Source of the DNA: Marinobacter sediminum
Lineage (GTDB): Bacteria; Pseudomonadota; Gammaproteobacteria; Pseudomonadales; Oleiphilaceae
DNA: 64,000 nucleotides
NCBI RefSeq assembly: GCF_023657445.1
Contig: NZ_JAGTWY010000001.1
Span: forward strand, 682,001-746,000
Direction: 5' to 3'
Positions 7,172-60,598 of this stretch are shown here, in pieces. Each line of letters opens with the position of its first letter. Position 1 is the stretch's first letter. The position numbers and the translations under genes were made by a program. The notes under the pieces were generated by a model. That model saw only the letters and a list, made by a program, of their open reading frames with translations, did not search any database and was not told where the DNA came from.

Positions 7172-10100
7172 CGGATCAACACCAGAATCATGAGCAGGAT
7201 GAGATTCCAGCACGCAGGTCCCTGTGGTTCTGGCTGTTGCTGGCATTTGCTGTACTTATCCTGTTGCCCGCCATTCTTGTTGTCATTGTTTTGCTGGCAC
7301 TTCGCTCTGAAACGGGCACAACCTGGGTTATCGACCAGGTGCCCGGACTGACAGTCACAGACGGCCAGGGCTCACTGTTTGGTCAGTGGCACGCGCAAAC
7401 GCTTGAGTGGCGCGGGTACGGTGTGAATGTCGAGGTGGATTCTCCGTTCATTGAATGGTCCCCCTCGTGTCTGTTCAACAAAGAGCTCTGTCTTGACACC
7501 CTTCATGCCCAGAGACTGGTCGTGAATGTCCAGCCATCTTCAACCGGGAAGGCCGATGGGTCAGACCTGACGTTACCAACCATAGATTTACCGCTGGGTG
7601 TCAGAATCAGTGATGTGTCTGTTGGCCCGTTTGTATTTAACGGCAGCCAAATCTGGGATCGTCTGGAATTTGCGGCTGTTGGCTCTGGTGCTGACTGGAT
7701 GCTGGAACGAGGTTTTTACGAACTGGATGCATACAGCGTAACGGTTTCCGGGAGAGTGGCAACCCGCCGGGACTGGCCTGTAGACCTCAATGTTCAGGCC
7801 TCCCTGCCGCCGCCCTCCGGGGATGAATGGTTACTTGATGTCAATCTGTCTGGCAGCGTGCGGGACCTTACCTTGGCTGGGCGTAGCAACGGGTACCTGG
7901 ACGCCGGGCTTACGGGCAATGTTTCGCCGCTTGACCGGGCTCTGCCCGCAAAGCTCAAGATTACTTCCAGGAGTTTCCTGGCACTGGAGACCCTGCCTGA
8001 GACGCTGGTTCTCCGGGACTGGTTTCTGGAGGCGAACGGCAGTCTTGAGTCTGGCTTTGAAACCCGAGGCCGCGCAGTATTACCGGGTACAGAGGGGCCG
8101 ATAAACCTGTTGCTCCGGGGTCATGTGGGTACAGAAGCGGCGCGGGATATTGAGTTGGAGTTATCGACGCAAAAACCGGAGCAGACGGGAAAAGTGAGGG
8201 TTGCCGGAAAGGTGAACTGGCAGGGCGGTCTGAACGCCGAGGCCGATGTCTCGCTGACGAAGTTTCCCTGGTTCTCGCTGCTGCCCGGCGTCTCGGAACC
8301 GCCGGTCATCCTCAATAGTCTGGATGGCTCAGTGAGTTGGGGTGACGGGCAATATCACGCGCGGCTGAAGGCGGCTGTTGACGGGCCCCAGGGCGAAGCT
8401 ACCTTGTCGTCGGTGGTCGATGGTGACCTGAGCGCGACCACGCTGACAGACCTGAAAGTGACGACAGGAGCCGGTTCGCTGGCTGGTGGTGGGGCACTGG
8501 ATTTCTCCGGGCCGCTGTCGTGGGAGGCGGCGTTAAAGCTTGATAACTTCAACCCGGGGTACTGGCTTCCGATGCTGGAGGCCAGCCTCAGTGGCGACGT
8601 TGAGACACGGGGCGCTCTACGTGAGGGTGAAATACCGGATATGACGGCCCGGTGGGACCTTGCCGGACAGTGGAAGTCCAAACCTGCCAGCGCAGTGGGC
8701 ACGCTGAATACGGCATCCGGAGCCTGGGAGGTTTCCGGGCTTGCCGTAGCGGTTGGTGAAAACAGCCTTGAAGGCAGCGGCGTCTGGGGCGAAGCACTGG
8801 ACGGGAATCTCGTTCTGTCATTGCCTGCTCCGGGCGAAATACTGGCAGGCCTCAAAGGCCGGATGACGGCGAAACTCAACATTGCTGGTACGCCGGATGA
8901 TCCCCAGGGCGACCTGACTTTCAGCGCCCAGGAGCTTGCCTGGCAGGATACGGTAACGCTTGCCAGCCTTGACCTGGATGCCTCGCTGGCGCCGGGCTTT
9001 CGCCTCAGGAGTCATGCTGAAATCGGCGGTATCGAGGCCGGAGGCCAGCGCCTGGAGTCCGTTACTCTGGATGCGGCCGGAATCCAGGATGATCATCGCC
9101 TCACGTTGACCGCGAACCACGAGGACGCAGACCTTCGGCTCGTGTTTGGCGGCGGTTTTGACGACTCATGGACGGCCTGGCAAGGCGCCTTGGCCAGTGG
9201 CCTGATTGAGATACCGGAGCAGGACCAGAGCTGGAGGCTTCAGTCTCCAGCAAAATTAGCCTATCGGAAGAATGGACAACTGACGTTCGACGCCCATTGC
9301 TGGAGCTGGCAGGAGAGTTCGTTCTGTGCTGAAGATCAGGTGCTGTTGCCAACACCCCGGATTGCATATCGCATCAATAACTTCCCGGCGGCGGCTCTTG
9401 ATCCGTTGATGCCGGAGGCCTTGCGCTGGCGGGCTCAGCTGAACGGTAGCATTGACGTTACCATGGCGGCTGAAGGCCCAAGGGGCCAGGTTCGGATGGA
9501 TGCGGGAAAAGGGGAGTTCCGGGTGCTGCTTAATGAGGAGTGGGAATCCCTGCAACATGAAATCTTCACTGTCGGATTGAACCTGCAACCCGAAAAGGCG
9601 GAGCTGGATATTCGGCTATCGGGGCCAGAGCTGGGTGAACTGACAGTGAATACGGCTGTCGATCCGGCAACCCCGGAGAGAACGGTGACTGGGCAATTCA
9701 GTCTTCAGGGCCTGGACATCGCCCTGGCTGGAATATTTACCGGGCTGGAGCGGGTGTCTGGCAAGGTTAAAGGTCAGGGGAAGCTGTCGGGTCCTCTGAT
9801 GAAACCGATGGTAAAGGGTGAAATTACGTTGAGTAATGCACGCCTGGTCGATCCAAGGCTTCCGGTGCCTCTGGATGATGTGTTTCTGAGTCTGGATCTC
9901 AACGGCTATTCCGCCGATATAAATGGCAGAATCAAGAGCAACGCCCGAAGCGAAACGATCGTGGGTGGCACATTGGACTGGGAGAACAGACCGGAAGGTG
10001 AGTTAACCATCCGTGGCAAGCGCGTACCTTTCAGTCTGGAGCCATACGCACGGCTGGAAGTGGAGCCGGATCTAACGATCGCCTTCCGGCAGGGCGAACT

Positions 10101-13569: not shown

Positions 13570-14181
13570 ATGAAGCTGACAGCAAGACAATCCCAAGTGC
13601 TGGAAATAATCCGGCGGTATCTGGATGAGACCGGCTACCCACCCACGCGTGCGGAAATCGCCGCAGAGCTCGGGTTTCGTTCCGCCAACGCGGCTGAAGA
13701 GCACTTACGTGCCTTGGCACGCAAAGGTGCCATTGAAATGGTACCCGGAGCCAGTCGTGGAATTCGTTTGCCAGAGGCTGAGCAGGATCTGGGACTTCCG
13801 GTGATTGGCCAGGTGGCGGCAGGCAGCCCCATTCTCGCCCAGGAACACGTCGAAGACCATGTCACACTGCAGCCAGACTTCTTCTCGCCGTCCGCCGATT
13901 ATCTGCTCCGCGTACGCGGTATGAGTATGAAGGATATCGGCATCCTTGATGGGGACTTGTTGGCGGTTCATCGTACTCAGGATGTCCATAACGGTCAGGT
14001 CGTGGTTGCGCGGGTTGGGGAAGAAGAGGTCACTGTGAAGCGATTCCGCAAGGAAGGCTCGAAGGTGTATCTGGTGGCCGAGAATGAGGAATTTGCTCCG
14101 ATTGAGGTCGATCTCACCGAGCAACAATTGTTTATTGAAGGTTTGGGAGTGGGTGTGATCCGTCGCTCTGATCTTCACTGA
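13570..14181 (+). CDS. lexA: LexA, SOS response repressor and self-cleaving protease
   Basis: A 203-residue LexA. The N-terminal winged helix begins [17 protein letters not shown] and includes the recognition region [12 protein letters not shown]. Self-cleavage is expected at A84-G85 (QVAAGSP), with catalytic S119 (RGMSMKD) and K157 (EEEVTVKRF). ATG at 13570 is preferred to the TTG one codon earlier. RecA-coated single-stranded DNA triggers cleavage and so derepresses the SOS regulon. An SOS box lies upstream and sulA follows 41 bases downstream, as in Pseudomonas. Confidence 0.97.
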
Positions 14182-14222
14182 TCGCATCGGGTCGCTACAG
14201 CAAGTTTGAAAGCGGGTGAATC

Positions 14223-14705
14223 ATGGAACAACTGAGCTTCAATCAGAATCTGGCTTATCAGCAACGTGCTCTGTCCTACTCGGTGCCGACACCGGAGCGA
14301 CGTTCTGTCATCCGTGCGCGACGCAGGGATGAATTCGACGATGTGGCCGTTGCTGGTAATGTGACTGAGATTATCTTGCCAAAGGGGCAGGTGGAGAATT
14401 TTCAGTTGCTGCTTCCGATGCTGACTCAGTTGAATCAGGAAAAGCGCTGGCTGGCCTGGATTGACCCGCCCCAGGCTCTGGTGAGCAAGTGGCAAAAAAT
14501 GCACGGTATCGTAGCTGGTGAGCTACTGGTGCTTCGCTCCACCACCGAATATCCTGCTCAACAACTGGCCGAAAGAGCGCTGAGTGCAGGAACCTGCCAT
14601 GCAGTCGTCATGTGGACCCGTAAGCTTGGGCGTACATCCTTTGAGGCGCTGCAGAATGCGTCTGCCAAAGGAAACAGCCACGGAGTAGTTCTTCGTCAGC
14701 GATGA
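14223..14705 (+). CDS. sulA: SulA, SOS-induced cell division inhibitor
   Basis: A 160-residue protein of the SulA/RecA-like family. The N-terminus is variable and the conserved core runs from VTEIILPKGQVENFQLLLPM to HAVVMWTRKLG. SulA binds FtsZ and blocks division while DNA is repaired. The gene lies 41 bases after lexA with no terminator between, so it is very likely induced from the lexA SOS promoter. The lexA-sulA order is standard in Pseudomonas and relatives. Sequence similarity to E. coli SulA is weak, so context carries much of the call. Confidence 0.85.
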   Translation: MEQLSFNQNLAYQQRALSYSVPTPERRSVIRARRRDEFDDVAVAGNVTEIILPKGQVENFQLLLPMLTQLNQEKRWLAWIDPPQALVSKWQKMHGIVAGELLVLRSTTEYPAQQLAERALSAGTCHAVVMWTRKLGRTSFEALQNASAKGNSHGVVLRQR

Positions 14706-14714
14706 TTCAGGAGA

Positions 14715-14744
14715 GTCTGGCGGCGCAAAGTCGCGGCGCCAGAC
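14715..14744. terminator. hairpin between sulA and convergent hypothetical gene, possible terminator
   Basis: GTCTGGCG (14715-14722) pairs perfectly with CGCCAGAC (14737-14744), with further GCG/CGC pairing inside. It starts 10 bases after the sulA stop, in a convergent gap. Only a short T-rich stretch (TTTCTT near 14756) follows, so termination efficiency is uncertain. Confidence 0.45.
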
Positions 14745-14780
14745 CGAACGGACGTTTCTTACCTAATCCGAGCGGGTTGA

Positions 14781-15041
14781 TCAGTGAAGGGTATAGGAAG
14801 GCTGGACGTCCGCAGCTTCCAGTTCATCCTCTTCCCAGTCAATGTCATGGGCAACATTGCCAACCGCTTCGATGCCGGCTGCAATCATGGCCTTGGCAAC
14901 CGACATATCCCGGTCTTCCATCATTTCACGGGCTTCTTCCGAAAACGAAATCTTCACTAGCGGTGCGCTGTCATCGTCAATTCGGCGCAGGGCATAATCG
15001 CCGTTGCTCAGTTGTACAATTTCAAAAAACGATGGTGACAT
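14781..15041 (-). CDS. conserved hypothetical small protein
   Basis: An 86-residue acidic cytoplasmic protein, opening SPSFFEIVQLSNGDYALRRI and carrying a DIDWEEDELEA tail. No membrane segment or signal peptide is present. I do not recognise an assigned function. AAAGG lies a few bases before the ATG. It is 47 bases downstream of another small minus-strand gene and may share its transcript. Coding is supported by the compact length, ribosome site and convergence with sulA at a hairpin. Confidence 0.7.
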   Translation of the reverse strand: MSPSFFEIVQLSNGDYALRRIDDDSAPLVKISFSEEAREMMEDRDMSVAKAMIAAGIEAVGNVAHDIDWEEDELEAADVQPSYTLH

Positions 15042-15088
15042 TCGGTAAACCTTTCAGTTGGTGAGATCTGGCGCCTCTGAGTGATCAA

Positions 15089-15601
15089 TCACCACTCACT
15101 GTGTTGCTCTTCCAGATCATCGGCAAAAGTTTTCATTGCGCTCAGTGTCTTCTGCAGTGAGGCTGCGGACCGGTCAGGTCCGGTATCTACAGAGACCGCA
15201 ATAATATTCTCGTCGCTGACCGTTTTCCGGGTTGCTGGTGGGCGGCTCTGTGACATTTCCAGCTGGTCAAGGTGGTTCCACCAGCTGCCGGCCCGGCTTT
15301 CGAACTCGCGTAAGCGCACGACTTCACTGGTTGCTTCGCCAATTAATGAGGCAAGCTCATTCAGTGAGGCCGGCTCTTCTGTCCGGTATTGATAGAGTCG
15401 TGCGATCATAACCAGCAGCAGTGTTCGAGACCTCAGAAGCAGCTCAATAGAACCCTGAATCGCGGCTTCCCGGCTTAACGCCTGCTCCGCCTCTGTGTTC
15501 GTTCGGCCGCCAGCGGAGTTAATGGAGGGGTCGAGCAAACCCAGAAGGGTTCGAGCCATAAACAGTTTTTGTGAGACCAGCGAATGCCATTGTGAGGCCA
15601 T
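15089..15601 (-). CDS. conserved hypothetical protein (DUF6586-like)
   Basis: A 170-residue, mostly alpha-helical soluble protein starting ASQWHSLVSQKLFMARTLL. It resembles small gammaproteobacterial proteins of unknown function often found near lexA-sulA; the DUF6586 label is from memory and tentative. The start at 15601 is chosen because AGGT lies upstream and because the longer in-frame form adds a very basic, unlikely 11-residue lead. Heptad-like hydrophobic spacing suggests a helical bundle. No catalytic motif is visible. Confidence 0.65.
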   Translation of the reverse strand: MASQWHSLVSQKLFMARTLLGLLDPSINSAGGRTNTEAEQALSREAAIQGSIELLLRSRTLLLVMIARLYQYRTEEPASLNELASLIGEATSEVVRLREFESRAGSWWNHLDQLEMSQSRPPATRKTVSDENIIAVSVDTGPDRSAASLQKTLSAMKTFADDLEEQHSEW

Positions 15602-15732
15602 AGGGTACCTGCGATCACGAGGCGGTCTTTTCAACCCGGAAAATTAATCATCCACTATAACATTTCCTGCAAACTATTTCTTCACCAGTCTGTGACCACT
15701 TCCGTTACACAAGAAGAAACAATCATTCACTT

Positions 15733-15746
15733 GAAACGATCGTTTG
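15733..15746. promoter_or_regulatory. PsrA-like palindromic operator upstream of the DUF1329 gene
   Basis: GAAACGATCGTTTG contains the perfect 12-base palindrome AAACGATCGTTT. It fits the (G/C)AAAC-N2-4-GTTT(G/C) motif described for the TetR-family fatty-acid-responsive regulator PsrA of Pseudomonas. It sits 116 bases before the DUF1329 start, in a gap of 260 bases between divergent genes. The matching regulator is not in the window, so the assignment is by motif only. Confidence 0.45.
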
Positions 15747-15861
15747 AATTTGGCAAAAAGGCGCCCGGCCGCGGACCTGGTGATCAGTGTGGCCCCACGG
15801 CATGGCTCCCCTAATTTGGTGGTTGCCAGTCTAACTGCATGAATTTCTGGAGGTGTAAGAG

Positions 15862-17220
15862 ATGCGGAACCACGTTTTTGCTGGTGTTGCAGCGTTTTTG
15901 TTCGGATTTTCCGGGCAAGTGCTGTCCAGAGTAACGCCTGCAGAGGCCACGCAGCTCGATGGTAAGCTGACACCGGTTGGCGCAGAAAGGGGTGCGAATA
16001 CTACGGGCAATATCCCCGCCTGGACCGGGGGCCTCAAGACACCGCCGGAGACTTGGCGCAAAGGTGAAGTAGAAGTAAATCCTTTCCCTGATGATCAGGC
16101 CATGTTTGTGATCACGGCAGACAATCTTGATCTCTATCGGGACAGGCTGTCTGACGGCCATATCAGGATGCTTGAACAGTATGGTCCTGACTTTTTTATG
16201 CCGGTATACCAGACCCGACGGACAGCGGCGTTCCCCGAGCATGTATATGAAAAGTCGCGGGAAAACGCCCTGACGGCTGAGCTTCTGGATAACGGTAATG
16301 GGGTCCGTGACACCATTATGACCAGCCCTTTTCCGATTCCAAAAAATGGCCTGGAGGTTATCTGGAACCATATTCTTCGCTATCGGGGCGAGGAAATTGC
16401 CTTTCGGAGCGCCTCAGCTACGCCGCAGACTGATGGTTCCTATAACCCGGTTGTTAATGACTACGAGTATTTCTTTGCGTACAGCAAGAAAGGCGCGGAG
16501 TTGGAGGAAATCGACAACAAGATTTTCTATTTAAAGACAGATACTGTTTCCCCGTCTTCTCTGGCCGGTACGATCACACTGGTGCACGAAACCCTGGATC
16601 AGATCCGTTCTCCCCGTCTGGCCTGGCGCTACGATGCTGGTTCACGTCGCCTTCGGCGTTCGCCCAATCTGGCCTATGAGACCGACCTGCCGAACTCGTC
16701 GTCGCTCAGGTCCGTCGATCAGAAAGACATGTATAATGGTGCGCCGAACCAATACGACTGGACTCTGAAAGGCAAGCGTGAGTTGTTCGTTCCCTACAAT
16801 GCCTACATGCTGCACGGCGCCGACGCGAAGGCCGGTGAAGTTATCCGCCCGGGCCACATTAACCAGGCCCTTACCCGCTATGAACTCCACCGTGTCTGGG
16901 TTGTGGAAGCAAAACGGCGCACCGGGATCGGTCACATCTATGACCGACGTGTCTTTTATTTAGACGAGGACAGCTGGCAGATTCTGGCGTCTGAAGAATA
17001 CGATGAGCAGGGAAATCTGTGGCGGGTGTCCGAAGCTCATAACATCAGCTATTACAGTGAGCCGGTGTTCTGGACTACCATGGAAATGACATACGACCTG
17101 AAGGCCAGGCGTTACTACATTGATGGCCTTGATCGCGGTTTCCCGGCATACGATTTCAGTCCGCGCTTCCGTGGCACGGAATTCACGGCGTCGGCGGCCC
17201 GCCGTGCTGCGCGTCGCTGA
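15862..17220 (+). CDS. DUF1329 exported protein (outer membrane lipoprotein-sorting-like fold)
   Basis: A 452-residue protein with an N-terminal signal peptide (about residues 1-22) and the DUF1329 hallmark region around LDGKLTPVGAERGANTTGNIPAWTG, split here by the mature start. The C-terminal half is beta-rich with several GLDRGFPAYDF-type segments. DUF1329 proteins are predicted periplasmic lipid-binding proteins with a LolA/LolB-like half-barrel and are often co-encoded with MmpL/RND exporters and fatty acid or sterol genes. No such partner is adjacent here. A ribosome site, TGGAGGTG, is at 15849-15856. A PsrA-like operator precedes and a strong terminator follows. Confidence 0.85.
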   Translation: MRNHVFAGVAAFLFGFSGQVLSRVTPAEATQLDGKLTPVGAERGANTTGNIPAWTGGLKTPPETWRKGEVEVNPFPDDQAMFVITADNLDLYRDRLSDGHIRMLEQYGPDFFMPVYQTRRTAAFPEHVYEKSRENALTAELLDNGNGVRDTIMTSPFPIPKNGLEVIWNHILRYRGEEIAFRSASATPQTDGSYNPVVNDYEYFFAYSKKGAELEEIDNKIFYLKTDTVSPSSLAGTITLVHETLDQIRSPRLAWRYDAGSRRLRRSPNLAYETDLPNSSSLRSVDQKDMYNGAPNQYDWTLKGKRELFVPYNAYMLHGADAKAGEVIRPGHINQALTRYELHRVWVVEAKRRTGIGHIYDRRVFYLDEDSWQILASEEYDEQGNLWRVSEAHNISYYSEPVFWTTMEMTYDLKARRYYIDGLDRGFPAYDFSPRFRGTEFTASAARRAARR

Positions 17221-17231
17221 CTGCAGATGAT

Positions 17232-17263
17232 GGAAAAGGGCCGGTACTCGCCGGCCCTTTTCC
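17232..17263 (+). terminator. intrinsic terminator after the DUF1329 gene
   Basis: GGAAAAGGGCCGG (17232-17244) and CCGGCCCTTTTCC (17251-17263) form a perfect 13 bp stem with loop TACTCG. It starts 12 bases after the DUF1329 stop, and the T-rich end of the stem supplies the slippery tract. It separates that gene from the flagellar block. Confidence 0.9.
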
Positions 17264-17312
17264 GTTCGGGTTGATTGATGATGCTCGCCGATACGCTGAA
17301 GGAGAATATGGC

Positions 17313-17642
17313 ATGGCCGACAGACAGGCTGATTTCGACTACCTTGATCGCCTGATGGCAGATCTTGGAAGGGCCCTGGCCGACCAGGACTGGGACCAAC
17401 TTGCGCGCCTCAATGCTCAGGTCAAGCCGGCGGTTGAGCCCCTGATGAAGGCGCTGGAGATTGGCGAGGTCGAAGCAGAGCCGGTCCGTCTGAGGCTCAA
17501 GGAACTGCAGCAGTTTGTAGATGCGGCTAACGAAAGCGCCGCACGCTCCCGCGATGAAGCCCGGGATTCACTTAAGGGTGTGAACCAGAATCGAAGTGCT
17601 GCGAAGGCCTACCAGAACGTCTCCTCAAATCGACCCAAATAG
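17313..17642 (+). CDS. probable FliT-like flagellar export chaperone
   Basis: A 109-residue helical protein. The C-terminal stretch NQNRSAAKAYQN resembles the end of Pseudomonas FliT/FleP proteins, and the position directly before fleQ matches the fliD-fliS-fliT(fleP)-fleQ order of Pseudomonas. FliT-type chaperones bind the filament cap FliD and keep it export-competent. ATG at 17313 is set by AAGGAGAA at 17298-17305. fliC, fliD and fliS are not upstream in this window; a metabolic-type gene and terminator are there instead, so the chaperone gene has been separated from its usual cargo genes, or those lie elsewhere. Confidence 0.65.
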   Translation: MADRQADFDYLDRLMADLGRALADQDWDQLARLNAQVKPAVEPLMKALEIGEVEAEPVRLRLKELQQFVDAANESAARSRDEARDSLKGVNQNRSAAKAYQNVSSNRPK

Positions 17643-17652
17643 CGTCATAAAA

Positions 17653-17681
17653 TTGACTCTGTGATGCTTACAGTCTTAAAT
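17653..17681 (+). promoter_or_regulatory. sigma70-type promoter for fleQ
   Basis: TTGACT (17653-17658), a 17-base spacer, and TTAAAT (17676-17681) lie 32 bases before the fleQ start. A sigma70 promoter is expected because fleQ is the top of the flagellar cascade and is not itself sigma54-dependent in Pseudomonas. Confidence 0.65.
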
Positions 17682-17712
17682 ACCGCACAAATCCCTCAAG
17701 AGATTTCTGTGA

Positions 17713-19164
17713 ATGTCCAAAAATAACAGCGTGCTGGTGTTGAGTGAGGATGAATCAAGACGCCGGGACATTGTCACGATTCTTGAGTTCATTGGTGAGG
17801 AGCAGATTGTTGCTGGCGACGAAGCTCTGGCGCTGGTGGACTCTGGTGATGCCGAGAGTCTTGGTAATATTGGGGTGGTGGTCATTAACGGAGAAGATGA
17901 CGGGGTAGCTGACAGCATTCAGGCCGTCTGTAAAACCGTTGACGGTGTGCCGTTACTGATGATCGGGGATCCTGCGCTTAAAGGGGTGGCGGATAGTGAC
18001 ATCACCCGCATTATTGCCCGCATGGAATGGCCCCTGAGCTATACCAAATTTGTGGATTCACTGTACCGGGCCCAGATATACCGCGATCAGTTCAGCCAGT
18101 CCCGTGAACGTGGTCAGCAACGTGGTCTTCAGTTATTTCGAAGCCTTGTTGGTACCAGCCGCAAGGTTCAGCAGGTTCGCCAGCTGATGAATCAGGTGGC
18201 GGATAAAGAGGTCAGTGTTCTGATTACCGGAGAGTCCGGCACTGGCAAGGAAGTCGTGGCCCGCAATCTCCATTATCATTCCTCTCGCAGGGACAAGCCC
18301 TTCGTTCCCGTGAACTGTGGCGCCATTCCCGGTGAACTGCTGGAAAGCGAACTGTTTGGTCATGAGAAGGGCGCATTCACCGGCGCAATTACCGCCCGTG
18401 TTGGCCGCTTTGAGATGGCGGAGGGTGGCACCCTGTTTCTGGATGAAATCGGTGATATGCCGCTCAATATGCAGGTCAAGATTCTGCGGGTTCTACAGGA
18501 ACGAACGTTTGAGCGTGTAGGCAGTAATCGTACCCAGTCTGCAAATGTGCGGGTGGTTGCGGCGACTCACAAGAATCTTGAGGATATGATTGAAGGCGGA
18601 AACTTCCGTGAAGATCTGTACTATCGTCTGAACGTTTTTCCCATCGAGATGCCGGCGCTTCGTGATCGGGTGGAGGATATTCCATTATTGATCAATGAGT
18701 TGACATCGCGCATGGAGAAGGAGAAACGCGGTTCTTTGAGGATGAATTCGGCTGCGATCATGAGTCTCTGTCACCACGAATGGCCGGGCAATGTCCGGGA
18801 GCTGGCCAATCTGGTTGAGCGCCTTGCGATCATGCACCCGTATGGCGTGATCGGCGTTCAGGAGCTTCCGAAGAAGTTCCGGTATGTAGACGATTATGAT
18901 GAGAATCGGCCCCTCGAGGATTCCGGCATGCCATCAGGTATACCAGCTCTGGTCGGCCTTGATGCGCCCGCGTTGTTGCCGGTGAACGGGATTGATTTGA
19001 AGGATTACCTCTCAAACCTGGAGAAGCAGCTGATTCAGCAAGCGTTGGATGAGGCCGGCGGGGTAGTTGCCCGGGCGGCTGAGAAGTTGCGGATTCGGCG
19101 GACGACGCTTGTGGAAAAGGTTCGCAAGTATGGGCTTCGTGAAGAAGAGGCTGAAGAGTCCTGA
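17713..19164 (+). CDS. fleQ: FleQ, sigma54-dependent master flagellar regulator
   Basis: A 483-residue enhancer-binding protein. The N-terminal receiver-like domain (about 1-120) lacks the usual acidic pair and phospho-aspartate ([10 protein letters not shown] where the Asp should be), as in FleQ. The AAA+ core has Walker A GESGTGKE and the sigma54-contact loop GAFTGA, and a Fis-type helix-turn-helix sits at the C-terminus ([13 protein letters not shown]). LFRS at residues 141-144 matches the c-di-GMP binding motif of P. aeruginosa FleQ, so c-di-GMP control is likely. It activates fleSR and class II flagellar operons together with FleN. Confidence 0.96.
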
Positions 19165-19347
19165 TGCCTGACTAAAGGTGCGAGAACGGGCCCGGGGTAA
19201 CTGTGGATGCGGGTCACGAAAGTATGTTCTGAACGGCGTCAAAGGTTTGTAACCCTTGGCGCCGTTGTCATTTCTGACCGACGTAAAATCGTCACTCCTG
19301 GTTTTTCCGATTTCTCTTCTTATTGAATTTAATGAAAAAAACCGAGT

Positions 19348-19362
19348 TGGCACGATGCTGGC
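19348..19362 (+). promoter_or_regulatory. sigma54 promoter for fleSR
   Basis: TGGCACG-ATGC-TGGC has the GG (19349-19350) and GC (19361-19362) elements with the required ten bases between them. It lies 68 bases before fleS. In Pseudomonas the fleSR operon is FleQ/sigma54-dependent, which matches. Confidence 0.8.
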
Positions 19363-19430
19363 TTCGTGGCTCGTAAACGAATCATCCGAATGGTGCGGCC
19401 TGTTGGTTGGGCCGGTCAGGGGGCGAGGTT

Positions 19431-20669
19431 ATGAGTCAGGCACATTTTGTTGCTCAGTCCGAAGCAAGTCAGGCGCAGGCTAATGCGGCGGCGGACGTTA
19501 ACGACAAGGTCACGGCGCTGTTTCCGGAGCAGGGCGATGAGGCGGTGGATTCTGCCCTGGAGCTGTTCAACCAGATGTCGCGGCAGATAACTGACTCGTA
19601 CCGAACGCTGGAATCCCGGGTTAATCAGTTGTCCGGTGAATTGACCCAGGAGTCGCTGCAGCGCCAGCAGGAGCTTGAGCAGAAGGAGCAACTGGCCGAC
19701 AGGTTGTCGACTTTGCTTAACGCACTTCCTGCTGCTGTTGTGGTTCTGGATAGTCAGGGTGTGGTGACGCAGACCAATCCGGCGGCGATAGCGTTACTTG
19801 GCGAACCTCTCGATGGTGAACGCTGGGTGGATGTGATTCGTCGCTGCTTTGCGCCACGCCGGGATGATGGTCACGAGGTGTCTCTCAAGGATGGCCGGCG
19901 GGTAAGTATTGAAATCCGGACCATGGAGAATCAGCCGGGCCAGTTGATTCTGCTGACCGATCTGACGGAAACCCGTCAATTACAGTCGCAGCTGGCTCAT
20001 GCCCAGCGGCTTTCGGCGATGGGTAAGATGGTGGCGTCTCTGGCCCATCAGATTCGTACCCCGCTTTCTGCCGCGATCCTGTATGGCGGGCACCTGAGTG
20101 AGAAAGACCTGGACGAGGAGATGCGTCAGCGTTGCGCCTCCCGCCTGATGTCCCGTCTGACGCATCTGGAGCAGCAGGTGCGGGACATGTTGATTTTTGC
20201 GCGGGGGGAGACCCGCCTCGCGGAGGAGCTGTCTGGCGCAACACTCGTTTCAGCCCTGACATCTGCGCTGGAGGGGGTGAAACTGGCGCCGGGCACTGAG
20301 GTCTCGGTTCGGGATGACGTGTCTGGTGATTGTCGCTTGATGTGCAACCGGGATGCGCTGGTTGGCGCCTGTACCAACCTGGTGAATAACAGTCTTGAAG
20401 CCGGCGCGACCTCTGTTGCGGTGCAGGTGGCACCGGAGTGCGGTGAGCTGGTCATCCGGGTAGTGGATAACGGTCCGGGGTTTGCCCGGTCTGAAGCGCA
20501 TCGGTTGATGGAGGCGTTCTATACCACAAAATCCCACGGCACAGGCCTTGGCCTTGCGGTGGTCCAGGCGGTGGTGAAGGCTCATCAGGGGCAGTTTTCC
20601 ATTGAATCGCCCGAGCAGGGTGGCGCGGTTGCCACGCTGCGATTGCCGCAATTGAAGAATAACCACTAA
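19431..20669 (+). CDS. fleS: FleS (FlrB), flagellar two-component sensor kinase
   Basis: A 412-residue soluble histidine kinase. A coiled-coil region (about 40-100) is followed by a PAS-like domain (about 95-190), then the H-box LAHQIRTPLSAA near residue 205 with the phospho-histidine, an N-box NLVNNSLEAGA, and G-boxes DNGPGF and GTGLGLA. No membrane segment is seen, as for FleS/FlrB. ATG at 19431 is chosen over 19407 because GGGCGAGG precedes it. It phosphorylates FleR to switch on class III flagellar genes. Confidence 0.95.
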   Translation: MSQAHFVAQSEASQAQANAAADVNDKVTALFPEQGDEAVDSALELFNQMSRQITDSYRTLESRVNQLSGELTQESLQRQQELEQKEQLADRLSTLLNALPAAVVVLDSQGVVTQTNPAAIALLGEPLDGERWVDVIRRCFAPRRDDGHEVSLKDGRRVSIEIRTMENQPGQLILLTDLTETRQLQSQLAHAQRLSAMGKMVASLAHQIRTPLSAAILYGGHLSEKDLDEEMRQRCASRLMSRLTHLEQQVRDMLIFARGETRLAEELSGATLVSALTSALEGVKLAPGTEVSVRDDVSGDCRLMCNRDALVGACTNLVNNSLEAGATSVAVQVAPECGELVIRVVDNGPGFARSEAHRLMEAFYTTKSHGTGLGLAVVQAVVKAHQGQFSIESPEQGGAVATLRLPQLKNNH

Positions 20670-30947: not shown

Positions 30948-32180
30948 ATGCCCCAGATGGTTCTTCCCCAGACCCCCGCTCCAGGGATGCAGAATGACAC
31001 CGGTTCCAGAAAGGCAGGCGCCGGTAAGGAAACCGGAGATGGTGAAAGCCGGTTTGAGTCATTATCTCGCGCTGAACAGAAGCGCCTGGATCGACAGAAG
31101 GCCGAGCACAGCGATGAGTCGCAACCTGTCAAAGAGCCCCGTTCTGCCGAAAATGATCGCCTCCCCCCCGAATCGGGCGAAAACACGGAGGCTATTCAGG
31201 ATGTTGTTGAAACCCCGGGTGCTGCTGTAGCGACAGTCGCTGACAGCGTCGAGAACGGCAAGTTGACTCCGGAGCTTTCCGGAGACATGGAGCTGGTCGC
31301 AACACCATTGACGTTTGCCGAATTGCAGACGCTTCTGGTGCCGGCAAATGGGCAAGCTGCTGCTGTTGCCGAGGGTGTCCCTGCAAGTAAGCCCGGTTTA
31401 TCGGAAGGTGTTCCTGCCAGTAAGTCCGGATTATCGGCGGTGCTCGCTCAGATGGTGCCGGGCAGCGGTCCGGTAAACGGTGTGATTAATGGCAAGCCTG
31501 GCCTGCAGGGGCAGGGTGCTCCGGGGGCTACTTCGGGGCTGCAACTCACGGAAGCACTAACAGCCTCTCTGGCACCTGACAACGCCAGGGCGGCAGATTC
31601 CTCCGCCAGTCTTGTGGCTTCGGCCCGTGTTCAGTCGGCCATGGAGGTGGTCTCGCAACAGGCTGCAAATGCCAATGCTGCAAAGCTTTCTCCCGAGATT
31701 TCGTTGCCGCTCAGGGGATACGCCACCTCAATTGATGTCCCGGTCGGCCATGCTGAGTGGGGCGATAAGATGGTTGGTAAGTTGAGCTGGCTGACAGCAC
31801 GAAATATGTCGGTCGCTGAGATTCACCTTACCCCGCCGGATATGGGGCCGATGGAAGTGAAGGTGCGTATGCATCACGACCAGGCCAACATTACGGTGCA
31901 TGCAGCCAATCCGGTGGTTCGGGACCAGCTCGAACTGAATTCTCATCGGTTGCGTGACATGCTGGGTGAACAGGGGCTCTCCCTTGCCCAGTTTGATGTT
32001 TCGGATTCACCACAACAGCAGGGTGGCGAACAGGCTACAGGTGACGGTGACGGTGACGGTGAGGGGAGTGGCGGTCGTGGGACATCTGGTACGCTGGCCG
32101 ACGCTGATCTTGACGATACGGATCTTCGTTCAGGTAATCTTGACCTCAGTTGGAAAGGCGAAGTCGACATCTTTGCCTGA
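30948..32180 (+). CDS. fliK: FliK, flagellar hook-length control protein
   Basis: A 410-residue protein. The N-terminal two thirds are low-complexity, rich in proline, serine, alanine and glycine, consistent with the ruler region. The C-terminal hook-length domain (about 265-355) has the family core AEIHLTPPDMGPMEVKVRMH followed by an NSHRLRDMLGEQGLSLAQFDV segment, split here by linker. A GDGDGDGEG glycine-aspartate tract lies near the end. FliK measures hook length and switches FlhB specificity to filament substrates. It contains an 11-residue tandem repeat at 31371-31436. Confidence 0.93.
   Translation: MPQMVLPQTPAPGMQNDTGSRKAGAGKETGDGESRFESLSRAEQKRLDRQKAEHSDESQPVKEPRSAENDRLPPESGENTEAIQDVVETPGAAVATVADSVENGKLTPELSGDMELVATPLTFAELQTLLVPANGQAAAVAEGVPASKPGLSEGVPASKSGLSAVLAQMVPGSGPVNGVINGKPGLQGQGAPGATSGLQLTEALTASLAPDNARAADSSASLVASARVQSAMEVVSQQAANANAAKLSPEISLPLRGYATSIDVPVGHAEWGDKMVGKLSWLTARNMSVAEIHLTPPDMGPMEVKVRMHHDQANITVHAANPVVRDQLELNSHRLRDMLGEQGLSLAQFDVSDSPQQQGGEQATGDGDGDGEGSGGRGTSGTLADADLDDTDLRSGNLDLSWKGEVDIFA
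31371..31436 (+). repeat. 33-base tandem duplication inside fliK
   Basis: Two head-to-tail 33-base units (31371-31403 and 31404-31436) encode EGVPASKPGLS and EGVPASKSGLS. They differ at about five positions, so the duplication is not fresh. It lies in the ruler region, where length changes would alter hook length. Confidence 0.85.
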
Positions 32181-55343: not shown

Positions 55344-57626
55344 ATGAAGAGATTGTATCCGAGGGCCCATGAGGCCCTCATTGCCGTATCCCGCCACGAT
55401 TTTGTTGCCGGTTCAGATCTGGTTTCCTCCATCACCGGCCATTCCATACCTCGTGAAGAGACTGTTAGCCATATTCTCGGCCTGCTGCCGGAGATTGAGC
55501 CGGATCAGGTCGTTATGCATGTGGGTGGAGGTTCCGGTTACCTTGCCGCAGTCATTTCCGAACTGGCTCATCAGGTTATCTATGTCGATAAGAATGTCGC
55601 GGTTGCCGAGGTGGCCCGGAAGCGGTTCTTTCGCCTTGGCAAGCACAATGTCGATGTACTGGTAACCGCGATCGAAGATGGCTTTGAGCTGGACCAGCCC
55701 TGCGACATGATCCTTTGCACGAGCTTTATTAACGAACGGAATGTGATGGCTGATTACCTCAGGGAAGGGGGGCATCTGATCTGTCTTGAGGGCAGGGCGG
55801 GACCGGTGCCGAGCCTCGCGATGTTTGTTAAAAAGGGCGGCAGGCTGGAGCGTGCCCGGACTCTTGGCTGGGTAGACTTCAACAGAAACGCCGAGCAGAT
55901 ATTGATTGACCTGGGCATCGTGGATGAAAGAGCGCTGGCCGATGCCAAGACAGAGGCGGCCGGGAAAAACTGTCCGGTGCTGGAGGTGTTGCGAAACAAG
56001 CTCAATCTGGAAGAAGTTGGTCTGTATCGATCCCTGGCGCAGCAACGGGGTATGGCTTTCACGGATGCGGACAGTTTGCTTCCGGATCTCCATAGCTCTC
56101 TGTTTCGAAGGTTTTCGCGAACGTTTCTCGACCTTTCACGGCTGATTCCGGTGTCTGAAAATAGTGACAAGATAACCGTTGTCACCGATGATCCGGACGC
56201 GCGAACCGATCAGCTGGAGCGCTTAAGCCCTAATCGTGTAGTTGAATGCCTGCTGGTAACTCCGACGGATTTCCGGCGGCTCTGGTCGGCATTGGATCTT
56301 ACGGTCAAGGGCAGCCGCTTCGTGGCGGATCAGTCGGCCGGCGTGGAAGAAAAACCGCTCATTAATGGACAGAGCAGTGACCTTTTGGGGGGCGAGCCGG
56401 GTCAGAAACACGTCAGCCCTTATCTGGTCTCTGTTTACGAAGCCATCCTGCTTGATGCGGTCAGCGAGAAAGCCAGCGACATTCATATTGAACAATACGG
56501 GGATCGGATCCGGATTCGCCTGAGGGTGGATGGGGACCTTCATGACCTCCCGCAATACCAGCTTTCCCCGCGTGAAATCAGAGGTGTAATTAATGTTATT
56601 AAGCTCCGGGCAGAGCTTAATATTGCCGAGCACCGCTTGCCCCAGGGCGGGCGCTCACGCCTGCAGTTAGGGGACACTTCCTACGATCTGCGGATCCAGA
56701 CTCAACCTTCCCTGCACGGTGAGCACGCCGTCATCCGGCTTCTGCCACAAACTGGCCGGGCCATGACTATCGCAGAGCTGGGCATGTCTGAGCTGATCGG
56801 CGCGCGCTACCAGCGACTACTGGATAACCCGGCAGGATTGGTTCTGGTGGTTGGTCCTACCGGGTCAGGCAAGTCCACAACCTTGTATGCGGGGTTGCAG
56901 ACGCTGGCGGACGATGGCCGGCGCAAGGTGATCACGGTTGAAGATCCGATCGAATACTCCATCGACAATGTCCAGCAGACCCGCGCTCGTCCTGAGATCG
57001 GTTTTGGATTTGCAGATGCGATGCGGGCGTTTGTGCGGGAAGACCCGGACGTTATCCTGGTTGGTGAAATCCGCGACCGGGAAACTGCCCTGGAGGCAAT
57101 CCGGGCATCCCAGACTGGCCATGTTGTTCTCTCCACACTGCACTGTAATGATGCCGTGGATTCTCTGCAGCGGCTGTACGATCTTGGGGCCCATCCGAAC
57201 TCCATTGCCGGCGAATTGCTGGCGGTGATTGCCCAGCGACTGGCCAAGCGGATTTGTAAGCATTGTTGCAAGCCGGCAAAACCGGACCTTGCGACTCTGG
57301 CGGAGCTCTTCCCCGACGGGCCCCCGGCCAACTTCCGCAGCTTCGAGGGTGAGGGCTGTGACAAGTGTAATGGTCGGGGAACCAAAGGGCGGGTTGCGAT
57401 CGTGGAATATATGGAAGTGGATGCGGATATCCGAAACGCCATTTCCAGTCAGCCGCCAATTGGAGAGTTACGCTGGCGTTCTCTGGATGCGGGCCTGGTG
57501 ACCATGCGTGACAGCGCCCTTGATCATGTGATTGAAGGCATTATTCCCCTGTCCGAATTGCCGCGTATTCTGCCGCGGGAGCGCATGGCACCGGAAGTCC
57601 GTGGTGGTCGTAGGAGCGCCTTATGA
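55344..57626 (+). CDS. fusion of a PIMT-like methyltransferase domain with a GspE/PilB-type secretion ATPase
   Basis: A 760-residue protein. Residues about 1-180 align by eye with protein-L-isoaspartate methyltransferase: SAM motif I VVMHVGGGSGY (56-66), acidic D82 in IYVDKN, and REGGHLICL (140-147). The motif I acidic residue is replaced by H59. Residues about 180-325 resemble the GspE/MshE N-terminal domain (MshEN). A complete type II/IV ATPase core follows: HIEQYGDRIRIRLRVDG, Walker A GPTGSGKST (504-512), Walker B ILVGEIRDRE (571-580), and a four-cysteine zinc site (C638, C641, C672, C675). The in-frame TAG at 55338 fixes ATG 55344 as the first start, though no strong ribosome site precedes it. 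No pilin, secretin or GspF/PilC gene is nearby. It overlaps the MoxR gene by 4 bases. Confidence 0.85.
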   Translation: MKRLYPRAHEALIAVSRHDFVAGSDLVSSITGHSIPREETVSHILGLLPEIEPDQVVMHVGGGSGYLAAVISELAHQVIYVDKNVAVAEVARKRFFRLGKHNVDVLVTAIEDGFELDQPCDMILCTSFINERNVMADYLREGGHLICLEGRAGPVPSLAMFVKKGGRLERARTLGWVDFNRNAEQILIDLGIVDERALADAKTEAAGKNCPVLEVLRNKLNLEEVGLYRSLAQQRGMAFTDADSLLPDLHSSLFRRFSRTFLDLSRLIPVSENSDKITVVTDDPDARTDQLERLSPNRVVECLLVTPTDFRRLWSALDLTVKGSRFVADQSAGVEEKPLINGQSSDLLGGEPGQKHVSPYLVSVYEAILLDAVSEKASDIHIEQYGDRIRIRLRVDGDLHDLPQYQLSPREIRGVINVIKLRAELNIAEHRLPQGGRSRLQLGDTSYDLRIQTQPSLHGEHAVIRLLPQTGRAMTIAELGMSELIGARYQRLLDNPAGLVLVVGPTGSGKSTTLYAGLQTLADDGRRKVITVEDPIEYSIDNVQQTRARPEIGFGFADAMRAFVREDPDVILVGEIRDRETALEAIRASQTGHVVLSTLHCNDAVDSLQRLYDLGAHPNSIAGELLAVIAQRLAKRICKHCCKPAKPDLATLAELFPDGPPANFRSFEGEGCDKCNGRGTKGRVAIVEYMEVDADIRNAISSQPPIGELRWRSLDAGLVTMRDSALDHVIEGIIPLSELPRILPRERMAPEVRGGRRSAL

Positions 57627-58723
57627 GCAAGTCGAAACAGCAGAAAGCCGCGCAGCGTGAACCGGTAGAAGTTACCTATGCGGATGAACTGGCAAGGCTC
57701 ATGGACCTGGACCAGGGACCAGTGCCCCCGGGCTGGCGCATGTCCCCACGGGCTGTGGAAAAGTTTGTCATGGGCGATGATAACCTTGGTGTCGAGCGCA
57801 AGTTCGTCGCTGACCGTGCCATGGTTGTGCGTATTATCATTTCCCTGTGCACCAATCGCGGTTGTCTCCTGGTGGGTGAGCCTGGCACGGCAAAGTCCTG
57901 GTTGTCCGAACTGCTGGCGGCAGCGATTTCCGGTACTTCCACGCTGACGCTGCAGGGTGGTGCTGTGAGTCATGTCGGTCAGCTTCTCTACGGCTGGAAT
58001 GAGGCGATTCTGCGCTCGGAGGGTCCCTGCCTGAAGGCGGTGGTTCCCAGCCCGTTGCTTAGGGGCATGATGGAAGGGCAGCTTGTCCGGTTTGAAGAAA
58101 TTGCCCGTTGCCCCCAGGCGCTTCAGGACGCCCTGCTGTCGGTGTTATCCGACAGGGTTGTTGTCATTCCTGAGCTGGCGGGAGACGAAGGCGTTGTGCT
58201 GGCTCGCGAGGGTTTTAATGTCGTGGCTACATCCAACAGCATTGATGCGGGTGTTCACCAGATGAGTGCGGCTTTGAAACGGCGGATGGACTTTGAGGAG
58301 ATCAGGCCCATCCGTAACCTCCCCGATGAAATGGATGTGGTGCGCCGCGAAGTCCGAAAGGCCAATGCCCATGCCGGTATCGATGTCGATCCGGACGAAT
58401 CGGTCCTCGAAATCCTGGTGACCATGTTCCATGAATTACGTAACGGCCAGACTCTGGACGGTCGTAGCACGGATCGGCTCGCCGGATCGGCGCTTTCTAC
58501 TGCCGAAGCGGTCTCTGTCGCTCACGCTGCCAGTCTTAACGCCTGGTATTACGGCGGAGGCAGCATGTCGGTGGAGCAGATGATGCACCATATCGTTGGC
58601 TCGGCTCTCAAGGACCAGCCCGAGGATCGCCGACGTTTGCGGCATTACTTCGAAACGACCGTGGCACTCCGTAAGGGCGAAAACTGGCAGCAGGCCTGGG
58701 ATTTGCGGTCACTGATCCAGTGA
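57623..58723 (+). CDS. MoxR-type AAA+ ATPase
   Basis: A 366-residue AAA+ protein. Walker A is GEPGTAKS (85-92), Walker B LVRFEE (about 155-160), sensor 1 ATSNS (202-206) and arginine residues SAALKRRM (215-222). A lead of about 60 residues precedes the core. It belongs to the MoxR group, AAA+ chaperones that usually act with VWA-domain partners to load metals or assemble complexes; none is in the window. Its ATG overlaps the stop of the fusion ATPase (ATGA), so the two are made together. Its 3' end overlaps the convergent FlhB-like gene by 15 bases. Confidence 0.88.
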   Translation: MSKSKQQKAAQREPVEVTYADELARLMDLDQGPVPPGWRMSPRAVEKFVMGDDNLGVERKFVADRAMVVRIIISLCTNRGCLLVGEPGTAKSWLSELLAAAISGTSTLTLQGGAVSHVGQLLYGWNEAILRSEGPCLKAVVPSPLLRGMMEGQLVRFEEIARCPQALQDALLSVLSDRVVVIPELAGDEGVVLAREGFNVVATSNSIDAGVHQMSAALKRRMDFEEIRPIRNLPDEMDVVRREVRKANAHAGIDVDPDESVLEILVTMFHELRNGQTLDGRSTDRLAGSALSTAEAVSVAHAASLNAWYYGGGSMSVEQMMHHIVGSALKDQPEDRRRLRHYFETTVALRKGENWQQAWDLRSLIQ

Positions 58724-59041
58724 TCCGCTCCCGGGAGCGTCCGCGCTAGTATCCCGCCTGGCATCTTCGGGGGTTTGTCCCCGGATATGGAAGGCGAACG
58801 CCAGAATCTCGGCAATGACCCGGTAAAGGTTTTCCGGAATCTCCTCGTTCAGTGACAGGCGAGCCAGGATGCCCGCCAGTTCTGCATTTTCATAAAGCGG
58901 CACGTTGTGTTCGCGCGCAATGCGTATTATCTCCTCGGCCAGTTCATGTGTGCCGGTCGCGGTAATGGTGGGTGCTTTCTCGCCGTCGTATTTCAGCGCG
59001 ACAGCGGCACTGGAGGTATGGGCTGAGGGGTTATCTGTCAT
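58709..59041 (-). CDS. FlhB C-terminal-domain paralogue (EscU/YscU/HrcU-like, FhlB type)
   Basis: A 110-residue soluble protein matching only the post-cleavage part of FlhB: AAVALKYDGEKAPTITATG, then EEIIRIAREHNVPLYEN and IPENLYRVIAEILAFAFHI, parallel to the FlhB at 36735-37871. The NPTH self-cleavage motif is missing (TSSA at the equivalent place), so it mimics a cleaved FlhB C-terminal fragment. Its start overlaps the second FliK-like gene by 4 bases (ATGA). Related stand-alone proteins can partly substitute for the FlhB C-terminal domain in Salmonella. Confidence 0.85.
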   Translation of the reverse strand: MTDNPSAHTSSAAVALKYDGEKAPTITATGTHELAEEIIRIAREHNVPLYENAELAGILARLSLNEEIPENLYRVIAEILAFAFHIRGQTPEDARRDTSADAPGSGSLDQ

Positions 59042-60462
59042 GCGCGGGTGTCCACAAGTCTGTGCTCCAAACGGGTTGCCAAGTGCTCAGGGCTGCCGCG
59101 ACGGCATTCCAGGTCGGTTACTTCCAGCCCCAGGTCGGTCAGACTTCGCCGAAGCAGGGGTAGCTCCTGGTTAACCTGTCGCAGGGTCGTCTGTTTTTCG
59201 GCCCAAACGCGCGCGCTGACGCTTTCATGTCGCAGGGATATGTCAAAATGCAGCGGTCCAGCCTCATCCAGATCCATGGCCAGAGCAAGTCTCCATTCAC
59301 TGGCCGGAGCCTTACGTTCGCTGTGCTGCCCACCCTGTTCATCCTGATGCTGTTCAATGCGAAGCTGAGCAATTCTTGGCTCATTCTGTGGTGTTACCCA
59401 GGGCAATTCCAGCAAGAGTGTGGATAAGGGTGCAGGCGCTTCTCCTCCTCCGGCACGGGCTGTCAGCACCTGGCTGTGGAGCTGATTTACCGTAATCCGG
59501 TTCAGCATTCCGGCCAGCAGGCGCAGCATCTGTCCCACCGTCGTCGGCTCTCTATCGGCGCTGGCCGGAGGCGTTGAGGCCATGGCCTGGGGAAATTGCA
59601 GAGGTGCCTGTATCAACTCCGGTGAGGCGAGTGGGGTCAGCCGATTGAATCCTTCCGGGCCATCACCCTGTTGGGCGAGCAGGGTCGTGATTACCCGGCC
59701 TATTGCCAGCTTGAGGTCTGGCAGAGCCGCTGACGGCGTCTGTGTCAGGCGTGATTCGGCAAACAGTCCGCTTTCTGAAATCCACTGCTTGACCTGTTGC
59801 AGGGTCTGATCCTGGCCACCGGTTCCTGGTTGCATTGCGGAACTTGCCGGAAGTCTGGCGAGGACCTGTTGTACGGCCTGCCGGGCGGCTTCGGGGAGTG
59901 GCTGGACTGCTCTGCCAGATGGAAGCTGGCCGGGCAGGGCGTCGGGCTTTACCCCCTGGGTCAGACTGGTCAGCAGTTTGGCAAAGCCGCCTTGCAGGTT
60001 CTGTTGCCAGGGTATGCGCTGAGCGAGGGCTCTTGCAATGCCGGCTTCCTGCGCTGGCGCAAGCTTGCCCATCAGCTGCAATTCGTTGCCGGCCCGCATC
60101 ACCTTTACCCAGTCTCCGGTTTCCAGCTCGGTGCGGCCAATGACAGCCTGTACCAGAAGTGATTTGCCGCGAATGTCCAGTAGTATGTCCGAAGTTGCCG
60201 TGCCTTGACGGCCAATGATCTCTGCGACTCTTGCGAGGGTGGTTTCCCGGTTGGCCAACTGCAATTGTTCCAGTTGTTGCCGTGCCGACAGGGCAACGGA
60301 CTCCCGGCCCTGCGTTGTGGTCTCCGCCGGCATGGCAACGGGTGCCCGCCCCTGCGTGCTGGTTTCGCCTGGCTTGGTGGGCAACACTGGTTTTTGCCCC
60401 TGAGGCGTTGGTGGCTGTTGGCTGCTGGGTAATTTCATCGTGACCGAATTGATGTTAGACAT
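59038..60462 (-). CDS. second FliK-like hook-length control domain protein
   Basis: A 474-residue protein. The first 70 residues are proline/glutamine-rich with a repeated TTQGR(E/A)xVA unit; helical regions follow, and the C-terminal part (about 305-474) resembles the FliK hook-length domain: WRLALAMDLDEAGPLHFDIS, then LPLLRRSLTDLGLEVTDLEC. ATG at 60462 is preferred to 60531, which adds an atypical lead. It is followed by the FlhB C-domain paralogue with a 4-base overlap. The pairing with an FlhB-type domain supports an export-specificity role. It is distinct from the main fliK at 30948. Confidence 0.75.
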   Translation of the reverse strand: MSNINSVTMKLPSSQQPPTPQGQKPVLPTKPGETSTQGRAPVAMPAETTTQGRESVALSARQQLEQLQLANRETTLARVAEIIGRQGTATSDILLDIRGKSLLVQAVIGRTELETGDWVKVMRAGNELQLMGKLAPAQEAGIARALAQRIPWQQNLQGGFAKLLTSLTQGVKPDALPGQLPSGRAVQPLPEAARQAVQQVLARLPASSAMQPGTGGQDQTLQQVKQWISESGLFAESRLTQTPSAALPDLKLAIGRVITTLLAQQGDGPEGFNRLTPLASPELIQAPLQFPQAMASTPPASADREPTTVGQMLRLLAGMLNRITVNQLHSQVLTARAGGGEAPAPLSTLLLELPWVTPQNEPRIAQLRIEQHQDEQGGQHSERKAPASEWRLALAMDLDEAGPLHFDISLRHESVSARVWAEKQTTLRQVNQELPLLRRSLTDLGLEVTDLECRRGSPEHLATRLEHRLVDTRA

Positions 60463-60598
60463 GAGTATTCCGGAGGCGCTTTCGTTATAATACGCCGCGC
60501 CGGCGACTCCTGCCGTGAATAATGTCTGCACCCGCCGTGTCAGTCATGAATACACCCGATGCTGCTAACGTGCGCATCGTCCTGGATACGGGGCCCTG

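Follow-up and report, generated by a model that had tools for sequence, protein, structure and literature searches.

The window analysed here is a 64,000-nucleotide stretch of the Marinobacter sediminum genome (contig NZ_JAGTWY010000001.1, positions 682,001 to 746,000 of the forward strand), in which a single gene of 760 codons (55344..57626, plus strand, as are all features of the pair given below) joins a head with the fold of isoaspartate methyltransferase (PIMT), an MshEN-fold domain and a T2SSE motor ATPase. On sequence grounds we regard it as firm that such fused proteins constitute a conserved motor-ATPase subfamily marked by a pseudo-PIMT head and by an AAA+ protein as partner. The fixed partner of the fused gene is the AAA+ gene directly downstream, not chemotaxis; this is the main regularity of the locus, and an earlier note on this DNA overlooked it. 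As a tentative explanation, judged somewhat short of probable, we propose that the two genes form a module equipping the type IVa pilus with an accessory motor, an orphan of the PilB class that has the pseudo-PIMT as its regulatory head and the AAA+ protein as its dedicated partner. The sequence facts are firm and the function is not.

Architecture of the fused protein

The frame is uninterrupted, and Pfam recognizes PCMT, MshEN and T2SSE domains in the product, each above its cut-off. The PIMT-fold domain spans residues 1-180 (55344..55883), the MshEN-fold domain residues 181-322 (55884..56309) and the T2SSE (GspE/PilB-class) ATPase domain residues 362-739 (56427..57560); the last scores 358 bits against a Pfam cut-off of 24.9, which places the protein in the motor-ATPase class. 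This domain contains a Walker A motif, GPTGSGKS (residues 504-511, 56853..56876), a Walker B region, VILVGEIRD (residues 570-578, 57051..57077), and two cysteine pairs, C638 with C641 (57255..57266) and C672 with C675 (57357..57368). The catalytic set, consisting of the Walker A lysine, the Walker B glutamate, the four cysteines and the residues that we take to be the Asp box and the His box, is invariant in all 43 close relatives (alignment A4). The earlier note had read a methyltransferase-like domain fused in one frame to a complete secretion ATPase with Walker A/B and a four-cysteine site, and the intact gene, the Pfam domains and these invariant residues bear it out on both counts. The predicted structure of the full-length protein is weaker, with a predicted local distance difference test (pLDDT) of 75 and a predicted template-modelling score (pTM) of 0.50.

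The fused protein falls below the equivalog cut-offs of the PilB model TIGR02538 (400.4 bits; cut-off 675.65), the GspE model TIGR02533 (393.7 bits; cut-off 630.25) and the TfpB model NF053534 (340 bits; cut-off 850). In a PilT-rooted ATPase tree with 64 tips, the 32 fused proteins all group in a single clade (support 0.87), separate from the PilB, GspE, MshE-like and TfpB-type tips; five tips are of the TfpB type, and the two checked, L169 and L170, lie above the TfpB cut-off. A defence role was considered and rejected, the PADLOC matches covering methyltransferase and P-loop stretches only.

The AAA+ partner

The fused gene terminates in an ATGA (57623..57626), in which its stop codon overlaps the start codon of the partner gene (57623..58723). 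The partner encodes a 366-residue AAA+ ATPase of the AAA_5 (MoxR/GvpN) type, whose AAA_5 domain scores 92.9 bits against a cut-off of 22 and whose Walker A/B residues are invariant in 13/13 sequences. It weakly resembles GvpN and MadB, and its 30.4 bits with the GvpN model TIGR02640 lie below the equivalog cut-off of 266.8.

A contig scan of genomes, with the best 80 of 114 kept, yielded 77 loci, 29 of them outside Marinobacter. The AAA+ gene adjoins the fused gene in 72 of the 77, and the five non-adjacent loci comprise three contig ends, one deletion running through both genes (L057) and the locus L097. At 70 junctions, the window included, the in-frame AAA+ start nearest to the stop lies at -19 to +18 nt, with the 4-nt overlap in 54 of them, in a measure that picks the nearest in-frame start and is hence biased to short gaps. 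Among 120 same-genus genomes, the AAA+ gene occurs in 64, each a fused-gene carrier; 64 of the 66 carriers have both genes, and no genome has the AAA+ gene alone. Two carriers have no AAA+ match: G446, in which the copy is truncated by the end of the contig, and G484, in which residue 152 of the fused protein has been joined by a deletion to the final 24 residues that the AAA+ gene encodes. The deletions at L057 (10001-11934) and in G484 (L180) are separate, and each removes the fused-gene end and the AAA+ start together. When 32 loci were clustered, no third gene was comparably constant: the fused family is present in 30, the AAA+ family in 26 and the next family in 7, six of which are labelled Wenzhouxiangella. 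We read the pair as a two-gene module because of the adjacency in 72/77 loci, the lack of any AAA+ gene on its own and the remnants that have lost parts of both genes.

The PIMT-like head

Residues 1-180 adopt the PIMT fold and score above the Pfam PCMT cut-off, as the earlier note had predicted, and its doubt that this part works as an ordinary methyltransferase was also well placed: the PIMT substrate serine is replaced by proline (Pro36) and the motif-I acid (D/E) is absent in 43/43 close relatives, the window protein having His59 in the place of the acid. In the same relatives, G61, G63, G65 and Y66 of the GGGSGY nucleotide loop (residues 61-66, 55524..55541) and the beta-2 acid are invariant, and the place of the PIMT substrate threonine (TIS loop) is serine in 42/43. 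Among 119 wider relatives, just one has serine at the substrate-serine place, and 28 retain the motif-I glutamate. PIMT contacts S-adenosyl-methionine (SAM) through an Asp-Gly pair (PMC11522691). Outside Marinobacter, these positions hold an acid in 25/25 sequences and glycine in 23/25; the 17 Marinobacter sequences have an acid in ten and glycine in none, and the window protein has A109 and I110. Judged by these residues, the head is a worn-out PIMT without the PIMT substrate site, that is, a pseudo-PIMT, whose ligand pocket may survive outside Marinobacter. A precedent for a pseudo-PIMT exists in the inactive PIMT that serves as a complex I subunit (PMC11522691).

Compatible with the accessory motor, the head could be a sensor of SAM or S-adenosyl-homocysteine that gates the motor. 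The invariant glycine loop and beta-2 acid speak for such a sensor, as does the cofactor Asp-Gly mostly kept by the non-Marinobacter members, but the cofactor contacts are eroded in Marinobacter and the motif-I acid is missing in all 43 close relatives, so that we rate it as improbable. It is extremely unlikely that the head is an active methyltransferase acting on pilus parts or on the AAA+ partner. The PIMT fold, the intact glycine loop and the motif-I glutamate of the 28 wider relatives would suit an enzyme, but the serine without which PIMT is inactive, according to work on the fly enzyme cited in PMC11522691, is proline in every close relative and almost never serine in the wider ones, and the M. 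sediminum genome already encodes two canonical Pcm proteins elsewhere. The serine loss and the Pcm pair count against isoaspartate as the substrate and less against other substrates.

The MshEN-fold domain

Residues 180-318 adopt the fold of MshE, that is, of the MshEN receptor for cyclic di-GMP (c-di-GMP). The two RLGxx...LxxxLxxQ c-di-GMP motifs are not found in the window protein, which has N182, A183, E184, K202 and A205 at the positions of motif 1 and P211, V212, L213 and L220 at those of motif 2. In the 43 close relatives, the motif-1 arginine is present in 1, the motif-1 glutamine in 0 and the glycine of the motif-2 RLG in 1. A relaxed published motif is unusable as a test, the MshE-like protein of the genome itself (L003) failing it too. 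The earlier note had considered control by c-di-GMP; with the key contacts absent, binding by this domain is not supported, and one neighbour points the other way, a GGDEF-EAL gene (8562-9974) of Alishewanella (L073) that shares 4 nt with the start of the fused gene. Despite this overlap, a c-di-GMP-controlled assembly motor of the MshE type appears very improbable, given that most of the contact residues are lost and that the GSPII domain of Thermus PilF, which has small deviations, does not bind (PMC12002112).

Genomic neighbourhood

The pair follows the che operon in most Marinobacter loci and lies 26 nt behind DUF2802 in the window. The window neighbours named from searches are CheW, ParA, DUF2802, AAA_5, FlhB-like, FliK, FlhA and FleQ; the names che, mot, fli and ccm used here are partly assumed. 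This setting had led the earlier note to link the fused gene to motility and chemotaxis, a link that the comparison of loci and genomes does not support. The other genes of the window have no match in 26 of the 29 loci outside Marinobacter, and L086 and L092 have one weak match each. Within the genus, the fused gene is present in 7/12 genomes without FlhA versus 59/108 with FlhA (Fisher p 1.0), and five of the seven FlhA-negative carriers are at least 99% complete; the occurrence of the pair is independent of flagella. The loci of M. pelagius, M. vinifirmus and M. profundi show a FleN-like gene, the pair and ccm, with no che or fli genes. An empty site, with DUF2802 adjoining the FlhB-like gene and the che operon present, was seen in 6/6 carrier-negative genomes examined.

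That the fused protein is a chemotaxis- or flagellum-linked assembly motor, the view of the earlier note, is thus judged very unlikely from the synteny, the FlhA-negative carriers and the che operons without the pair, although the place behind the che operon favours it and one distant locus points the same way: in L080, a metagenome-assembled genome (MAG) of Alcanivoracaceae, CheA, CheB, CheW-type and CheR genes lie directly behind the pair on the opposite strand (13718-20216, minus strand).

The flanks are otherwise varied. Eighteen further genes in six distant loci include none related to pili and two without a family; they comprise GGDEF-EAL, PAS sensor, ABC, TPMT, amidase, efflux, enoyl reductase, amidotransferase, two-component and chemosensory genes, among others. 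The FlhA-negative Marinobacter loci L039, L054, L059 and L063 have no che or fli genes and retain FleQ- and FleN-like genes. In the window, a 110-residue FlhB C-terminal-like protein and a FliK-like protein are encoded between the pair and the ccm-like genes (58709-60531, minus strand), and a second FliK-like gene lies at 30948-32180.

Platforms and the candidate machine

The M. sediminum genome has seven T2SSE matches and eight GspF/PilC-type platform matches, and all eight platforms adjoin other ATPases. From scores and context, we take the T2SSE set to be GspE, PilB, MshE-like, TadA, PilT-like, PilU-like and the fused protein, with platform matches beside the first four. The 64-kb window has no GspF/PilC platform match, so that the fused gene does not have the pilC neighbour typical of PilB, and the genome has no spare platform of this type for it. 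Like TfpB, the fused protein is an orphan motor coexisting with PilB, and TfpB has been shown by mutants to be an orphan extension motor of the type IV pilus (PMC8213720). We favour an accessory motor because the motor residues are invariant in 43/43, the proteins form their own clade and are orphans of a platform, and because TfpB is a precedent for an orphan motor serving a type IV pilus. We have more confidence in an accessory motor as such than in the type IVa pilus, which we infer to be the machine served. The fused motor would dock, next to PilB, on the PilC platform of the type IVa pilus already present in the cell, in the manner of TfpB in Acinetobacter, and would help to start or tune pilus extension; the pseudo-PIMT head would be a regulatory or docking module, and the AAA+ partner would load, remodel or remove the motor. 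The assembly motor of the earlier note is supported as far as the intact motor ATPase goes, and unsupported in its tie to motility or chemotaxis and its control by c-di-GMP.

All 25 distant carrier genomes tested have a platform, and 19 of them have PilB above the cut-off. In G506, G507 and G509, a single platform protein was found, adjoining the canonical PilB, and the other T2SSE proteins above the cut-off in G507 and G509 are PilB, TfpB (929 and 941 bits; cut-off 850) and two more, presumably PilT/PilU-like by size and score. Provided that the fused motor works with such a platform in the first place, the sole one seen in these three genomes points to PilC.

Several points weigh against a pilus motor. 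A further platform could be missing from G506, G507 and G509, whose completeness is not stated. Platform matches are equally numerous in carriers and other genomes (mean 6.3 vs 6.0, p 0.31), and the presence of PilB in 62/66 carriers is uninformative because PilB is nearly universal in Marinobacter (111/120 genomes). There is no direct pilus-gene link, the flanks being variable and those checked in six distant loci being free of pilus genes. In the 20 kb of L097, no AAA+ gene accompanies the relative. The archaeal precedent for an AAA+ protein tied to pili involves a vWA protein (PMC4858521), and no vWA gene was seen beside the pair, the 32 clustered loci having no third widely shared neighbour (a vWA gene at other places was not looked for).

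The T2SSE hexamer and the AAA+ protein might instead form a stand-alone cytosolic machine for remodelling, signalling or assembly of another target, and no pilus motor. We consider this doubtful, yet to be taken seriously: the separate clade without a platform gene, the autonomy of the two-gene unit in variable neighbourhoods and the carriers without an extra platform protein fit it well, but it leaves the retained motor residues and four-cysteine element unaccounted for, as well as the platform and further PilB-class ATPases in 25/25 distant carriers. A bolder form of the accessory-motor proposal, to which we give little credence, would add a third class to the extension motors PilB and TfpB of type IV pili: a transferable cassette with an AAA+ assembly factor, whose pseudo-PIMT head would couple extension to the SAM/S-adenosyl-homocysteine state, with this ligand input secondarily lost in Marinobacter.

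Distribution of the family

Judged by their sequences, relatives that match over the full length are spread over Marinobacter, a scatter of other gammaproteobacteria and Myxococcota. The nearest is that of M. salinus, with 90% identity. The non-Marinobacter loci include Wenzhouxiangella, Alishewanella, Alcanivorax, Spongiibacter, Porticoccus and Halieaceae, and the protein search added Halopseudomonas and Pseudomonas. The N-terminal alignment A2 matches 68 of the 120 same-genus genomes, or 66 after removal of G385 and G410; these 66 carriers include three incomplete copies, at the contig end of G446 and as deletion remnants in G463 (L057) and G484. Across the class, 369 genomes gave four matches, two after checking, with the own genome included, so that the family is rare there. 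The second PIMT-like matches of G385, G410, G392 and G442, and short matches in G001 and G147, are other PCMT proteins with the motif-I acid intact and were left out of the family counts.

The relative in L097, a MAG labelled Planctomycetota, led to 119 further proteins, in which PCMT and T2SSE were recognized by eye in all and MshEN in all but one. Nine of them bear organism names, which we take to be Myxococcota; the 119 as a whole are not all of this group, as 2 of the 11 placed in the tree fall within the gammaproteobacterial clade. In M. segnicrescens (L078), the pair sits outside the che locus and its sequence is nearer to Halopseudomonas in the tree, which suggests transfer and makes an independent acquisition probable.

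Other fusions were seen alongside. In the M. pelagius genome G488 (L138), a 748-residue frame with a response-regulator-receiver-like start followed by a T2SSE ATPase scores 574 bits with the PilB model and is another fused secretion ATPase. Four Marinobacter genomes (L103:4926-6980, L104:4576-6573, L105:5607-7652 and L106:6093-8090) encode a canonical-looking PCMT, motif-I acid intact, with a large C-terminal domain that is presumably erythromycin-esterase-like.

Significance

Our literature searches found no description of a PIMT-MshEN-T2SSE fusion, and the pair may be an additional drive of type IV pili that has so far gone undescribed; a section heading of PMC11656802 poses the question of what purpose several PilB homologs serve in one bacterium. 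Some Marinobacter relatives have the two-gene cassette and others lack it at a site that otherwise matches, which makes the family well suited to genetic dissection. The family is also a rare instance in which an apparently inactive repair enzyme has been taken over as a motor head, and through it an AAA+ protein of the MoxR/GvpN type becomes linked to a single defined gene in bacteria. The current names of members (isoaspartate methyltransferase, PilB, GspE and TadA) are misleading, and the other common name, T2SS/T4P/T4SS family ATPase, omits the head.

Comparison with known systems

One close parallel is TfpB (NF053534; PMC8213720), likewise a PilB-class orphan motor that has no platform gene to itself and coexists with PilB. 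The fused protein differs in its score (340 vs 850 bits) and its separate clade, TfpB has no room for a PIMT head (the NCBIfam model has 584 positions and the two TfpB seen have 591 residues), and both motors co-occur in one genome (G507 and G509). With PilB and GspE (TIGR02538, TIGR02533), the fused protein shares the Walker motifs, the four cysteines and an MshEN-type domain in front, but it scores 400 bits with the PilB model (cut-off 676) and 394 with the GspE model (cut-off 630), has the extra PIMT head and no adjoining platform gene. The MshEN receptor of MshE (PMC5013675) has the fold of residues 180-318, whereas the fused protein has lost the key contacts.

For the head, the parallels in PMC11522691 are the Paracoccus CI-PIMT and the inactive RPA2580, which have the PIMT fold without the isoaspartate-binding residues, and CI-PIMT also serves within a large machine, complex I. 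Both are separate proteins with Val or Phe in the threonine place, in contrast to the fused domain with its Ser. For the partner, MoxR/GvpN ATPases of archaea, paired with vWA proteins, are predicted regulators of type IV pili (PMC4858521); there, as here, an AAA+ protein of this type has a genetic link to a system of the type IV pilus class, but in the fused family the link is to the motor gene itself.
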